Source of the DNA: Acidobacteriota bacterium
GTDB lineage: Bacteria > Acidobacteriota > Vicinamibacteria > Vicinamibacterales > UBA8438
Reading direction: 5' to 3'
Length of the DNA: 64,000 nucleotides
NCBI GenBank assembly: GCA_009838525.1
Contig: VXRJ01000010.1
Span: 222,520-286,519 of the forward strand
The translations under genes and the position numbers were made by a program. Of the stretch, positions 50,104 through 63,370 are shown in pieces; positions within the stretch are counted from its first letter, which is position 1, and every line of letters begins with the position of its first letter. The notes beneath the pieces were generated by a model. That model did no database searches. It had not been told where the DNA came from and was given only the letters and a program-made list of their open reading frames with translations.

Positions 50104-50143
50104 GCGAAAGAGCCTCTCGGTATCGAGAGGCTCTTTCGCTTTT
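50104..50143 (+). terminator. Rho-independent terminator
   Basis: A perfect 16-bp stem (GCGAAAGAGCCTCTCG with its exact complement at 50124-50139) closes a GTAT loop and is followed by four T. It ends transcription of the upstream cytochrome/monooxygenase gene and overlaps the leader region of the next gene. Confidence 0.85.
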
Positions 50144-56576: not shown

Positions 56577-56819
56577 ATGGCGAGCATCACGATCCGCAAT
56601 CTCGACGACGATGTGAAGACCCGGCTTCGGACCCGCGCGGCGGGGAACGGTCGTTCCATGGAGGAGGAAGTGCGGCTTATCCTGCGGGAGGCGACCGACC
56701 GGGAACCCGAACCGGAGAATCTGGCGAGGTTCATTCGCGAGTGTTTCGCGCCCTTCGGCGGCGTAGAACTCGAACTGCCGCCGCGTGAACCGATGCGCGA
56801 GCCCCCGAAACTCGATTGA
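56577..56819 (+). CDS. FitA-like ribbon-helix-helix antitoxin
   Basis: This 80-residue protein starts ASITIRNLDDDVKTRLRTRAAGNGRSMEEEVRLILREA, the typical FitA/Arc ribbon-helix-helix domain. The C-terminal acidic region (FGGVELELPPREP) should bind the toxin. The stop TGA is one base before the toxin ATG, so expression is coupled. Confidence 0.88.
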   Translation: MASITIRNLDDDVKTRLRTRAAGNGRSMEEEVRLILREATDREPEPENLARFIRECFAPFGGVELELPPREPMREPPKLD

Positions 56820-56820
56820 G

Positions 56821-57252
56821 ATGGCGGCAATGGTGGTGCTCGACACGAATGTGGTGTCCGAGTTGATGCATCCCGCCGGCGATCCCGTGGTTGCGTCGTG
56901 GGTTGCGGAGCGTCCGACATCGAGCCTGTTTCTGACGGCGGTGACCGAGGCCGAGCTGCGCTTCGGTCTTGCAGTCATGGCCGCGGGCAAACGCCGGGAC
57001 GGCCTGGCAGCGGGACTTGAGCGGATGTTGCGAGCAGGCTTTGCAAACCGCGTCCTGCCCTTTGACAGCGCCGCCGCACGCGCGTATGCCGAGATCGCCG
57101 CCGCCCGGCGCTTGATGGGCCGGCCGGTCTCGCAGGCGGACGCTCAGATCACGGCGATCGCGAGCGCCCGGGGCATGGCCGTGGCGACACGCAACGTTCG
57201 GGATTTCGAAGACATGGGGATCAACGTGATCGACCCCTGGGAGAGCACCTGA
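56821..57252 (+). CDS. FitB/VapC-like PIN-domain toxin
   Basis: This 143-residue PIN protein has MVVLDTNVVSELMHP (first Asp plus a later Glu), TAVTEAELRFGL (Glu), SQADAQITAIA (Asp) and TRNVRDFEDMGINVIDPW at its end. These are the acidic and FitB-typical C-terminal motifs. It should cleave RNA when released from the antitoxin. Confidence 0.9.
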   Translation: MAAMVVLDTNVVSELMHPAGDPVVASWVAERPTSSLFLTAVTEAELRFGLAVMAAGKRRDGLAAGLERMLRAGFANRVLPFDSAAARAYAEIAAARRLMGRPVSQADAQITAIASARGMAVATRNVRDFEDMGINVIDPWEST

Positions 57253-58099: not shown

Positions 58100-59791
58100 G
58101 TGCATCCCGTCGACTGGACCATCATCGTCGCCTATCTCGCCTGGGTGTTGTACGACGGCGTGAAGCGGGCGAAGGGCACCGGCGCCGTCGAGGGCTACTT
58201 CCTCGCGTCGCGCTCGCTGCCGTGGTGGGCGGTCGGACTGTCGGTGATGGCGACGCAGATGAGCGCCATCACGCTGGTCGGGACCACCGGCCAGGGATAC
58301 GACGACGGGATCCGCTTCGTGCAGTTCTACTTCGGGCTGCCGCTGGCGATGATCATCCTGTCCGTCACCCTGGTCCCGTTCTTCCACCGGGCCCGGGTCT
58401 TTACCGCCTACGAGTACCTCGAGCGGCGCTTCGACGCCCGCACGCGCGCGCTGGCCAGCTTTCTCTTCCTGATGTCGCGCGGCCTCAGCGCCGGCGTGAT
58501 CATCGCGGCGCCGGCCGTCATTCTCTCCATCGTCTTGGGGTGGAGCCTGCCCCTCACCATTCTCGCCATCGGCGTGCCGACGACGCTCTACACGATGTTC
58601 GGCGGCGTGCAGGCGGTGACCTGGGCCGACGTCAAGCAGATGGTGGTGATCATGGTGGGGGTCAGCGCGGCGGTAGCGGCGCTGATCGCCGGATTGCCGG
58701 ACGATGTCTCGCTGGAGCCGGCGCTGCAGGTGGCGGGGGCGACGGGCCGGCTGCAGGCGATCGACTTCACCTTCGACCTGAACGAGACCTACACGTTCTG
58801 GTCGGGCCTGCTCGGCGGTCTGTTCCTGATGCTGGGCTACTTCGGCTGCGACCAGAGCCAGGTGCAGCGCTATCTCACCGCGAAGTCGATCGACGCCGGA
58901 CGCCACTCGCTGCTGATGAGCGCCTACGCGAAGATCCCGCTCCAGGTGCTCATCCTGATGATGGGCGTTCTGGTCTTCTGCTTCTACCTCTTCACCGAAC
59001 CGCCGATGCTGTTCAACGACTCGCACCAGCCCGCGGTGGAAGCGAGTGGGCGGGCGGGCGAGTACCGGGCGCTCGACGAGCAATTCCGCGCGGCCCATGC
59101 GGCGCGACGCTCCGACGCGGAGGCGGTCGTCGCGGCGCGGCGGGCGGGTGACGAGGCGGCGTTCCGGTCGGCGACGGCGGCCTTCGAAGCGAGCGATCGG
59201 CGGGTGGTCGACGTCCGCGCCCAGGCGCGCGACCTCGTGCGCGACGTCACCGGCGATGCCGCCTACAGCGACGTCAACTACGTTTTCCCGACGTTCATCA
59301 CGACGCAGCTCCCCATCGGCCTCGTCGGGCTGCTCATCGCCGCGATCTTCGCGGCGGCGATGTCGAGCATCGCGGCGGAGTTCAACGCGCTCTCCGCCGC
59401 CACCACCATCGACTTCTACCGCCGCCACATCAAGCGCGAAGCGTCGGACGCCCACTACCTGCGGTTCTCGAAGATCGCCACCGGCTTCTGGGGCCTCTTC
59501 GCGTCGGTCACCGCCCTCTACGCCGCCAATCTCGGCTCGCTGATCGAGGTCGTCAACCGCTTCGGCTCTTTCTTCTACGGCTCGCTCCTCGGCGTCTTCG
59601 TCCTCGCGGTCGGCATGCCGCGCGTCACCGCCGCCGGCGCCTTCTGGGGGCTCATCGGCGGCATGGCATCCGTCGCCGCGGTCGCCACGTTCTTCCCCGA
59701 CGTGTCGTTCATGTGGCACAACCTCGTGGGGGTCGTGGCGGTGTGCGCCATCGGCGGGATCACCACGCTGCGCCGACCGGCGTCTGCTTAG
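58100..59791 (+). CDS. Sodium:solute symporter with a charged loop insertion
   Basis: This 563-residue SSS protein starts with GTG 58100 ([19 protein letters not shown]). Motifs are [44 protein letters not shown] and [30 protein letters not shown]. Between two helices lies an insertion of about 85 mainly Ala/Arg/Glu residues ([18 protein letters not shown]...ARDLVRDV), likely a coiled-coil. It imports an unknown solute with Na+. The gene precedes the sigma-54 module by 135 bp up to the first promoter element. Confidence 0.86.
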
Positions 59792-59926
59792 GACGTTCAG
59801 TGGACATCACGTGCACAGGGGTATGACATTTGGTGTCTATCCTACCTGCGAGTGCGGTGTCGGGACCAACCTCCGTTCCTTGCGTAACAACCGGCGATCC
59901 AGGCACTTGTGAGAATGCCGAGCGAC

Positions 59927-59942
59927 TGGCACGGTGCTTGCT
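59927..59942 (+). promoter_or_regulatory. Sigma-54 (-24/-12) promoter
   Basis: TGGCAC at 59927-59932, five bases, then TTGCT at 59938-59942 match the RpoN consensus with the correct GG-to-GC spacing. Transcription should start near 59953, about 33 bp before the ATG of the DUF5671 gene. Confidence 0.75.
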
Positions 59943-59985
59943 TTCATCGGAATCACGCACTGCTGCACGGTAGGGAGGAACGAGA

Positions 59986-61053
59986 ATGGCGCTCAGCCCG
60001 GAACTGGTCGGTTTCGTCAAGGAAGGTCTCGAACGGAAACTCTCGCGGGAACAGATTGCGGACATTCTGACCCGCGCGGGCTGGCCGGCGGATCAGGTTC
60101 GGCGGGCCTTGGCTGGATTCGCGGACGTCGAGTCCCCGATCCCGGTCCCGCGGCCAGCCGTGTCGACCCGGCCGCGCGAGGCCTTCCTCTACGTCGTGAT
60201 GTTCATGGCGCTGTTCGTCAGCGCCTACAGCCTGGGAGCGGCGGTCTTCGGGTTGATCGATACCTATCTGCCCGACCCGGCCGGATTGCCGCCGTTCGTG
60301 ATCCGCGAGATCCTCCGGTTCTCCGTGTCGGCCCTGGTCGTGGCGAGTCCGGTGTTCGTCTTCGTCACCCGGGTCATTCGGCGCGGCGTTGAAGAGCAGC
60401 CCAGCTCCCGGCGATCGCGCATCCGCCAGCAACTGACGTACCTGACGCTGTTCGTCGCGTCGTGCGTTCTGGTGGGCGCTGTCACCGGGCTCGTTTACAG
60501 CTTCCTCGGGGGTGAGCTGACCGCCCGCTTCGTGCTGAAGTCGCTGACCGTGACCGCGATCGCCGGTGGCGTGTTCAGCTATTACCTACGGGATCTGCGG
60601 GATACGGAGCGGGACCCGCGCGAAACGCGGACGCCGCGCCGGCGCGATCTCCTTCCCGCCCTCGGCGCCGCGTCGGTGCTGGTCGCCGTGGTCGCCGGCC
60701 TGGTGGCGCTCGGGTCGCCGGCCGACCAGCGGATGGAACGGCTGGACGCGCGCCGCGCCCAGGACCTCGACGCCATCTCGCGGGCCATCGACCGCTACGA
60801 GGCGACGCACGAGAGGCTACCGGCGACGCTCGACGAGTTGCAGCGCAATTCCGACGTGCAGGTTGCGATTGCGGACCCGGTGACCGGCGAGCCGTACGGC
60901 TACGCGGCCGGGGAGGGAACGGCCTACGAGCTGTGCGCCACCTTCGAGCGGGCCAGCGAAGAGCGTGAGTTCCGCCGCGGGCGGCCCTTCTCACGGCACG
61001 AGGCGGGCCGGCATTGTTTCCCCCTTCGGGCTGAGCCCGACCGCAGCGGGTGA
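59986..61053 (+). CDS. DUF5671 membrane protein with pilin-like C-terminal part
   Basis: This 355-residue protein has an N-terminal helical segment with LSREQIADILTRAGWPADQVRRAL, a UBA-like pair of helices. Several membrane helices follow (AFLYVVMFMALFVSAYSLGAAVF and beyond), as in DUF5671. The C-terminal periplasmic part with LDAISRAIDRYEATHERLPATLDEL resembles the helix-then-loop pattern of type II secretion pilin-like proteins. The ribosome-binding site GGGAGG precedes the ATG. It is driven by the sigma-54 promoter and sits directly before the sigma-54 activator gene. Confidence 0.78.
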   Translation: MALSPELVGFVKEGLERKLSREQIADILTRAGWPADQVRRALAGFADVESPIPVPRPAVSTRPREAFLYVVMFMALFVSAYSLGAAVFGLIDTYLPDPAGLPPFVIREILRFSVSALVVASPVFVFVTRVIRRGVEEQPSSRRSRIRQQLTYLTLFVASCVLVGAVTGLVYSFLGGELTARFVLKSLTVTAIAGGVFSYYLRDLRDTERDPRETRTPRRRDLLPALGAASVLVAVVAGLVALGSPADQRMERLDARRAQDLDAISRAIDRYEATHERLPATLDELQRNSDVQVAIADPVTGEPYGYAAGEGTAYELCATFERASEEREFRRGRPFSRHEAGRHCFPLRAEPDRSG

Positions 61054-61089
61054 TTGACATGAAATGTACACGGACGTACATTTCATGTC
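61054..61089 (+). promoter_or_regulatory. Sigma-70-like promoter embedded in a perfect 14-bp inverted repeat
   Basis: GACATGAAATGTAC (61056-61069) and its exact complement (61076-61089) flank a 6-bp centre. TTGACA at 61054-61059 and TACATT at 61077-61082 form a -35/-10 pair with 17 bp spacing. The arms therefore cover both boxes, so any protein bound there would block the promoter of the activator gene. Confidence 0.7.
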
Positions 61090-61122
61090 TTGTCACTCTT
61101 TAGGCCGCAAGAGCGTCGAACC

Positions 61123-62631
61123 ATGGAGTCGCTGGCGCGGCTGGCCTACACCAATCCGTTCGGCTCCGAGTTCATCGAGATCGAACACGCGGTTCTCGGC
61201 GACGACTTTGTGCCGCATGGGCCGGTCTGGAGCCTCGAGGCAGGCTACGAGGGGAATCCGGCCCTCGAACCGCTGGTGTCCGCCTCCGAGCGGGCGGCGC
61301 GGGACGCCAGGGAACGCCTACTGCGGTCGGGATCGGCGACTCCGGAGGAGCTGGCGCTGTACGCCTACGTCGTCGGCCAGATGCTCTACTGGCGGTACGA
61401 GGACGACCTGCACCAGGTCCACGTCGACCCCAGCCGCAGCCGTCGCCGGCTGGCGTTCTACGAGCGATTCCACCGGGACGTAGAGCACTTCCTGACGCTC
61501 GACGGAATCCCGTTGCCGTGGCGCGTGGAGCCGCCGCACCTGTTCGCCTGCTTCTTCCAGGCCCGCCGCGCGTTCGACCTCATCTTCCGGAACATCATCG
61601 GCACGTCGAAGGCCGCCGCGAAGCTGCGCGCGGATGTGTGGCAATCCATCTTCACGCACGACATGCGGCGCTACCGCCGCTCGCTCTACCGGCGCATGCA
61701 CGACGTGACGACGCTCGTAACGGGACCGTCCGGAACGGGCAAGGAGCTGGTCGCCCGGGCCATCGGGCTCTCTCGGTACATCCCGTTCGACCCTCAGCCC
61801 GGGACGTTCGCGGCGAACCTCGACGGGGCGTTCCACGCCGTCAATCTGTCCGCGCTGTCGCCGACCCTCATCGAATCGGAACTGTTCGGGCACCGGAAGG
61901 GCGCTTTTACCGGGGCGCTGCAGGATCGCATTGGATGGCTCGAATCGTGCCCGCCACTCGGCACGGTGTTGCTGGACGAAATCGGCGAGCTCGACCCTTC
62001 GATTCAGGTCAAGCTGCTGCGCGTCCTGCAGAACCGCGAGTTTCAGCGGATCGGCGAGACGACGCCCCGCGAGTTCAAGGGCAAGCTGATCGCCGCGACG
62101 AACCGAGACCTCGACGCCGAGATGCGCGCCGGCCGCTTTCGCGAAGACCTCTACTACCGGCTGTGCGCGGATCTCATCGAAACGCCGTCGCTCCGCGATC
62201 AGTTGCGCGACTCGCCGGACGAGCTCCGCAACATGGTGCTGTTCGTCAGTGAGCGCGTGGTCGGGTCCGACGAGGCTTCGGACGTGGCCGGGGAAGTGCT
62301 GGCCTGCATCGAGCGGGATCTCGGGCCCGACTATGCGTGGCCGGGCAACGTGCGGGAGCTCGAACAGTGCGTCTGCAACGTACTGGTGCACAAGCGCTAC
62401 CGGCCGAGGACGGCTCCCGAGACATCGGATGCAGCCGATGGCGTGGTGGCGGCATGGCGTGAAGGCGATCTGACCGCCAAGGAGCTCCTTCGGCGCTACT
62501 GCACGCGCGTCTACGCGACGACGGGAAGCTATCAGGAGACCGCGCGCCGCCTGGATCTCGACCGGCGCACCGTCAAGCGGTCGATCGATCCCGATCTGCT
62601 CGGGCGACTGACGGCCGCCGAGCCGAACTAG
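61123..62631 (+). CDS. Sigma-54-dependent transcriptional activator, no receiver domain
   Basis: This 502-residue protein has an unfamiliar N-terminal region of about 185 residues (with YWRYEDDLHQVHVDPSRSRRR) in place of a receiver, PAS or GAF domain I can name. The AAA+ domain has Walker A TGPSGTGKE with K207, GAFTGA at 260-265, Walker B TVLLDEIGEL and an R-finger region REDLYYRL. The C-terminal helix-turn-helix includes YQETARRLDLDRRTVKRSI. It activates RpoN promoters. ATG 61123 follows a TTG eleven codons upstream; the ATG is preferred. Its neighbours carry -24/-12 promoters. Confidence 0.88.
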   Translation: MESLARLAYTNPFGSEFIEIEHAVLGDDFVPHGPVWSLEAGYEGNPALEPLVSASERAARDARERLLRSGSATPEELALYAYVVGQMLYWRYEDDLHQVHVDPSRSRRRLAFYERFHRDVEHFLTLDGIPLPWRVEPPHLFACFFQARRAFDLIFRNIIGTSKAAAKLRADVWQSIFTHDMRRYRRSLYRRMHDVTTLVTGPSGTGKELVARAIGLSRYIPFDPQPGTFAANLDGAFHAVNLSALSPTLIESELFGHRKGAFTGALQDRIGWLESCPPLGTVLLDEIGELDPSIQVKLLRVLQNREFQRIGETTPREFKGKLIAATNRDLDAEMRAGRFREDLYYRLCADLIETPSLRDQLRDSPDELRNMVLFVSERVVGSDEASDVAGEVLACIERDLGPDYAWPGNVRELEQCVCNVLVHKRYRPRTAPETSDAADGVVAAWREGDLTAKELLRRYCTRVYATTGSYQETARRLDLDRRTVKRSIDPDLLGRLTAAEPN

Positions 62632-62733
62632 CGACGCCCTGGCGGGCGCGGCCGGCGCAAGCTCGTAGCGCGCCCGTCCCGGCACGTCCAGGAATCCGGC
62701 CAGGCGCGACCCTCCGCATCGCAGGCTCAGGAC

Positions 62734-62748
62734 GGCACGCAATTTGCA
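62734..62748 (+). promoter_or_regulatory. Second sigma-54-type promoter
   Basis: GGCAC (62734-62738), GCAAT, then TTGCA (62744-62748) give the GG-to-GC spacing of RpoN promoters. The base before GG is C instead of T. The expected start site at about 62758 is only 3-4 nt before the ATG at 62762, implying a nearly leaderless mRNA. Confidence 0.6.
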
Positions 62749-62761
62749 TCCTGCTACCGGC

Positions 62762-63370
62762 ATGGATGCACGATTACTCCTTCATCGCTCGCTCGGGGTG
62801 GCCATTGTGCTGCTAATGTGCTCGCCCGCCGCGGCTCAGGAGGCGCAGCCGAAGCCGCGGACACACCACGTCAGCCTGCAACCGGGCGTCTTCAACAACT
62901 CGGCCGAGGGCTTCGAGTTCGGCGGCCTCGACCTCGACGCCGGCAGGGACACGTTCTACGGCGCCGTCAGCTATCGGTACTCCCTCAACCCCTCCATTGA
63001 TCTCGCCTTGCACGCCGGGCACTGGATTGGCCAATGGACAACGGCGACGTCTCACATCGTCGAGTTGGCCAGCGGATTCATCGGCCCCGGCGTCCGCGTC
63101 AATGGTCGGCGCCGGGCGGCCGGGCGCGTCGTCCCCTATCTCCAGACGAACGTCTACTTCGTGCAGGAGCAACTGGTTCTCGAGCGGGCGTGGTCGAAAC
63201 GAGTGACGCAAAACGCCTTCGGAGTTGGCCTCATGGGCGGCCTCAACGTCGTTCTCGGTGAACGCGTTTCGATTCCGATCGAAGCGATCTATCTGGCGAC
63301 CACCGGTAACGCAGGAATCGATGACCTTTCCGGAGTCGGTCTTTCGATCGGCGTCGACCTGAGCTTCTGA
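62762..63370 (+). CDS. Outer-membrane beta-barrel-like protein
   Basis: This 202-residue protein has a signal peptide ending at AAAQ and a beta-rich body with TFYGAVSYRYSLNPSIDLALHAGHW and GPGVRVNGRR. The end GLSIGVDLSF is a typical C-terminal Phe barrel signal. Its function is unknown. It is downstream of the sigma-54 activator and has a -24/-12 promoter just before it. Confidence 0.72.
   Translation: MDARLLLHRSLGVAIVLLMCSPAAAQEAQPKPRTHHVSLQPGVFNNSAEGFEFGGLDLDAGRDTFYGAVSYRYSLNPSIDLALHAGHWIGQWTTATSHIVELASGFIGPGVRVNGRRRAAGRVVPYLQTNVYFVQEQLVLERAWSKRVTQNAFGVGLMGGLNVVLGERVSIPIEAIYLATTGNAGIDDLSGVGLSIGVDLSF

Follow-up and report, generated by a model that had tools for sequence, protein, structure and literature searches.

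Introduction

In Escherichia coli, pspF is transcribed divergently from pspA and is negatively autoregulated through the upstream activating site (UAS) that they share, and the PspF protein is not known to have an N-terminal regulatory domain. As described in the available part of PMC3708866, PspF is the sigma-54 activator (enhancer-binding protein, EBP) of the phage-shock regulon, where it activates a membrane-stress operon. One-component EBPs of Desulfovibrio vulgaris are, in the available part of PMC4641369, encoded divergently to, inside or upstream of sigma-54 operons, and the UASs of their regulons lie about 100 bp from the promoter. The same part of PMC4641369 proposes that one of these EBPs is autoregulated, and reports nine operons with EBP sites that have no sigma-54 promoter. 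An EBP regulating its own promoter is therefore an ordinary mechanism, and a circuit joining autoregulation to a target gene next to the EBP gene is of a known kind.

Here we describe such a locus in a 64,000-nucleotide stretch of an Acidobacteriota genome (the window), where a perfect inverted repeat covers the promoter of an EBP gene. As in the PspF system, the layout is divergent in many orthologs of this EBP. Unlike PspF, the family carries an N-terminal domain of about 200 aa (202 residues), predicted to be all-helical, and in the window the proposed target gene is located upstream on the same strand and has its own putative UAS. Furthermore, whereas the D. vulgaris motifs were, according to the available part of PMC4641369, reconstructed in Desulfovibrio and its relatives, the motif found here is common to several phyla while the target genes change. 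In a literature search limited to open-licence papers, we recognised no report of this EBP family, of its dyad motif or of the target exchange.

Results

The original prediction placed, directly after the stop of the upstream gene, a perfect palindrome with 14-bp arms and a 6-bp centre covering both a -35 TTGACA and a -10 TACATT. These features are all present. The upstream ORF ends at 61053, the arms (61056-61069 and 61076-61089) are complementary at 14 of 14 pairs (100%) around a 6-nt centre, and the -35 (61054-61059) and -10 (61077-61082) elements lie on the plus strand with a spacer of 17. Only the span of 61054-61089 needs adjusting: the palindrome, to which no strand is assigned, occupies 61056-61089, and the two leading T of TTGACA fall outside it. 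TTGACA-N17-TACATT, which a promoter scan assigns to the EBP gene, is the sole sigma-70-like promoter in 59700-62900 (10/12; shuffle mean 0.2).

The repeat has 41% G+C, versus 69% for the window, and is the second-longest perfect inverted repeat of the window for loops of up to 20; in ten dinucleotide shuffles of the window the longest arms reached 10-13, versus 14 here. The longest, at 50104-50139 (16-bp arms, 4-base loop), has the look of a terminator stem. A search for the same palindrome elsewhere in the genome, which had been proposed as a check, returned at up to 3 mismatches one site in the window and one in the 4,292,814-base genome; a mobile or repeated element as its source was rejected on this copy number of 1. 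An Rfam search of the window gave 0 matches, and the 46-bp site had no match in a phage collection. The half-site, scanned over the genome at up to 2 mismatches, gave 18 matches, two of them the palindrome itself; two others with 1 mismatch (L034 and L035) have no dyad of at least 12/13.

The palindrome is best read, from its sequence, as two 15-bp GTACAWTNNATGTAC-like dyads in opposite orientation, 21 bp apart and placed on the -35 and the -10. Dyad 1 (TGACATGAAATGTAC, 61055-61069, minus strand) lies over the -35 and dyad 2 (GTACATTTCATGTCT, 61076-61090, plus strand, start-to-start 21 bp from dyad 1) contains the -10, each matching GTACAWTNNATGTAC at 11/13. The ACAT-N3-ATGT that had been pointed out within each half proves to be the conserved unit. 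The perfect 34-bp palindrome is particular to the source genome, its relatives having two unequal dyads, and the site overlaps the EBP's own promoter, as an autoregulatory operator does. In six family genomes (G006-G011) the -10 of the ortholog's TTGAC-N17-TACATT is covered by a GTACATTNNATGTAC-like site. At up to 1 mismatch, GTACATNNNATGTAC occurs at 0-3 sites per genome in 13 family genomes; one GTACATNNNATGTAC-like site in each of G006-G011 is the ortholog promoter, and the exact matches of G009, G010 and G011 are all there. Among the 43 orthologs whose dyad reaches 11/13, 23 have a -35 of at least 4/6 at the dyad spacing of the window, versus 11% of offsets by chance.

The gene following the palindrome (61090-62631, plus strand) encodes a sigma-54 EBP of 513 aa with a helical N-terminal domain, an AAA+ domain with GAFTGA and an HTH-like C-terminal end. 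Its coding start is most likely the TTG at 61090, directly after the palindrome, rather than the ATG at 61123, since the orthologs share the N-terminus MxLxxxxER. In eight orthologs (L100, L105, L116, L118, L121, L123, L126 and L146) the in-dyad -10 ends 8-12 bases before the start codon, so that these mRNAs, and likewise that of the window gene read from its TTG, are probably leaderless. The AAA+ domain matches Sigma54_activat (PF00158, E 2.6e-47, 161 bits versus a cut-off of 20.2). We aligned 40 rows (alignment A1), namely the window and 39 of 40 picked loci, omitting L086, whose frame stops at codon 106. In the GAFTGA loop (residues 271-276), G271, T274, G275 and A276 are invariant in 40/40. 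The C-terminal end, TGSYxETARRLxLDRRTVK, is conserved, and no Pfam HTH model was reported there.

The N-terminal 202 residues (61090-61695) have a mean column identity of 53% over the 40 rows, and their structure model contains helices and no strand (pLDDT 89.9). No Pfam family matched this domain, and comparison of its fold with the PDB was uninformative (Foldseek best E 0.77, VIA best Z 5.4). The best NCBIfam match and the PADLOC matches of the protein are to RtcR, the CARF-AAA-HTH RNA-repair activator, and all fall in the AAA+ part. However, the score is 194 against the 650-bit RtcR cut-off, and the matches begin at residues 184-208, so that the CARF part is unmatched. The domain was found in 9 of 120 sampled genomes of the order, one copy each and all in the window's own family, hence the EBP gene is patchy. 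The same genome has one copy of sigma-54 (rpoN; PF04552, E 2.0e-64).

We derived the dyad consensus from Vicinamibacteria and tested it on orthologs outside that class (Planctomycetota, Methylomirabilota, Bryobacterales, Deltaproteobacteria, Verrucomicrobia and others, as named in the record titles). We used 78 of 80 ortholog loci, L097 and L136 being without a gene start; five from Vicinamibacteria formed the training set, leaving 73 held out. Within 150 bp upstream, a dyad of at least 11/13 was present in 34/73 held-out loci, with a shuffle expectation of 0.22, and one at 12/13 in 15/73, versus 0 of 3650 shuffles. Lowering the threshold to at least 10/13 brought the count to 49/73 (1.7 expected), the best upstream dyad of the other 24 being below 10/13. 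By comparison, 2.4% of the upstream regions of 967 other ORFs at the same loci reached 11/13, and these include divergent genes sharing the site. The original prediction had been made to depend on conservation of the palindrome next to orthologous genes, and its half-unit is indeed kept in several phyla.

The tandem arrangement recurs as well. Over the 53 loci whose dyad reaches 10/13, a second dyad (counted at 8/13 or better) lay at -21 in 16, -22 in 6, +21 in 4 and +22 in 6; no other offset was found in more than 3 loci, except ±11, which partly reuses half-sites. The motif is rare: 20 further genomes gave 0-7 matches each at up to 1 mismatch to GTACAWTNNATGTAC, both strands summed. Beside 16 paralogous EBPs the dyad was not seen (best 8-9/13, nothing above 9/13; best tandem 14-16), compared with 8-13 and 14-22 for 11 orthologs.

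Conservation has its gaps. In genus g10 (L073-L075) the own-promoter dyads are absent in 3/3 loci, so that self-control is not universal but an optional part. G026 (L005, L075) has no dyads whatsoever, and in G024 and G025 the EBP's own promoter is free of them. In G002, the nearest relative at 84% identity, the tandem is weak (17) and a DUF5671 neighbour is missing.

Directly upstream of the EBP gene, on the same strand, lies the proposed target, a gene for a DUF5671 membrane protein (59986-61053). It is preceded by a sigma-54 promoter, TGGCACGGTGCTTGCT (59927-59942, plus strand, 12/12; 11 exact matches in the genome), and by two candidate UAS dyads without assigned strand, A (GGACATCACGTGCAC, 59802-59816, 9/13) and B (TGACATTTGGTGTCT, 59824-59838, 8/13, 22 bp from A). 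Individually these dyads are weak, below the 10/13 cut-off of the 86-locus count given below. Together, 59802-59838 ranks second to the palindrome among the tandem dyads of the whole window, and a tandem score of at least 17 was seen once in 304,743 neutral positions. Distances from the centres of A and B to the promoter (59927) are 118 and 96 bp, near the spacing at other loci, and among 30 sigma-54-like sites tested (those with loci, of 41 found) only 59927-59942 has a tandem of that score upstream. A further sigma-54-like site (62733-62748, 11/12) precedes the beta-barrel outer-membrane gene downstream of the EBP gene; its best upstream tandem is 12, and it was not assigned as an EBP target.

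Sigma-54 sites were accepted at 9/12 or better with GG and GC fixed. By this measure none lies within 400 bp upstream of 61090 on either strand (L065). Over the 78 loci, 39 sites in the 400 bp before the EBP start face away from the gene (7.9 expected) and 14 face it, versus 7.8 expected. We then counted coupling over 86 loci, the 73 held-out ones and 13 family loci, with dyads of at least 10/13: in 36/86 a sigma-54 promoter has a dyad 60-200 bp upstream of it, whereas 60 permuted motifs gave a mean of 3.1 (sd 3.0, max 15; top words e.g. ATGCAT and TGTACA). The distances cluster at 102-107 and at 114-119 bp. The placing typical of a UAS, some 100 bp before a -24/-12 promoter, is seen in the window and in these 36 loci.

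The neighbours of the EBP gene, clustered after leaving out ORFs over the EBP gene itself, include an MFS-acyltransferase-AMP-ligase (acyl-ligase), a VIT-VWA protein with a rhomboid-family protein behind it, DUF2339, a GNAT-aminotransferase fusion and a PEGA lipoprotein. In g4, g5 and g10, dyads also follow the EBP gene and precede a sigma-54-like site of the gene after it, in 6/10 loci examined (L068, L069, L070, L072, L073, L074); none is found there in L065, L066, L067 and L075. That next gene is PEGA by Pfam in L069 and was elsewhere judged by eye from translations. In g10, which has no own-promoter dyads, two of the three loci (L073, L074) keep a tandem dyad before the next gene's sigma-54-like site, which indicates that the motif follows the EBP target and not only the EBP promoter. 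Two sites away from the EBP gene look, by sequence, like candidate trans targets: in L158 (G044), a 22-bp tandem with a sigma-54 site at 102 bp precedes a DUF2157-like gene just below the Pfam cut-off, and in L064 (G025), a dyad has a sigma-54 site at 105 bp and an LGT-like gene. The sites L166 and L167, common to two NC10 genomes, have neither a second dyad nor a sigma-54 site.

Discussion

A motif that is conserved by orthologs, rare, not seen at the paralogs and placed before sigma-54 promoters has the pattern expected of binding sites for this EBP. We consider it quite probable that the EBP uses the palindrome as a double operator to repress its own promoter, and that it also activates the DUF5671 gene from 59802-59838. 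A dimer of the EBP C-terminal helix-turn-helix would bind each arm as one 15-bp dyad, the two dyads standing two helical turns apart, one over the -35 and one over the -10 of the sigma-70-type promoter. Bound EBP would occlude this promoter and so hold its own level down. It may also occupy the second tandem dyad (59802-59838), and a signal switching its helical N-terminal domain would let it activate sigma-54 RNA polymerase at 59927-59942, which would open that promoter for transcription of the DUF5671 gene. The sequence features, their conservation, rarity and spacing, and the promoter coupling are observed, and the EBP binding, the own-promoter repression and the signal are inferred; the sign of the own-gene regulation is suggested solely by the overlap with the -35 and -10. 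The operator or autoregulation reading of the original prediction is supported by ortholog conservation, rarity, no sighting at the paralogs and recurrence before sigma-54 promoters, but as a general rule of self-control it does not extend to every ortholog.

The EBP could bind the dyads yet act at its own gene mainly as an enhancer, through positive feedback or as a UAS that another sigma-54 promoter also uses. A divergent sigma-54 promoter stands some 80-120 bp from the own-promoter dyad in many orthologs, where a single site could serve both, and in the window read-through would carry the sigma-54 transcript from the DUF5671 gene into the EBP gene. We nevertheless consider this unlikely for the window, which has no sigma-54-like site in the 400 bp upstream of 61090 and whose dyads coincide with the -35 and -10, -35 matches being enriched at that spacing in orthologs. 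Ownership of the palindrome by an unrelated repressor seems more doubtful still. Sites for one-component repressors are typically palindromes over a promoter; however, this motif tracks the EBP across phyla while the neighbours change, other regulators appear in at most 4 loci each in the ten largest neighbour clusters (cluster 7 is ECF-sigma-like by eye, at varying distances), and the sites cluster, like UASs, 102-119 bp ahead of sigma-54 promoters. We reject an action of the repeat as RNA, either as a terminator of the DUF5671 transcript or as a hairpin blocking the TTG start, because, although the window RNA folds to a 14-bp hairpin (-20.3 kcal/mol) between the stop and the next start codon, the T tract is absent, 59700-62900 has no terminator-like site, and 14 folded ortholog sites lose the long hairpin (-2.0 to -11.4 kcal/mol, other pairings) and keep both dyads.

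With the double-operator reading, an uncharacterised activator family acquires a DNA code together with predicted targets and a predicted loop of autoregulation. It further provides an example in which the regulator and its operator remain constant across long distances and the membrane genes under their control change, the exchanged predicted targets being DUF5671, the PEGA lipoprotein, VIT-VWA with a rhomboid protease, MFS-acyltransferase-acyl-ligase, DUF2339 and GNAT-aminotransferase. That the DNA code is kept while the sigma-54 targets are exchanged suggests a portable envelope-stress switch. We lean, with some reserve, towards an EBP family of many phyla with a new all-helical sensor domain and a DNA code of its own, namely GTACAWTNNATGTAC dyads repeated in tandem at 21-22 bp, in which one input would drive interchangeable outputs.

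Elsewhere in the window, at 56577-57252, two small overlapping genes resemble a pair of antitoxin and PIN-domain toxin.
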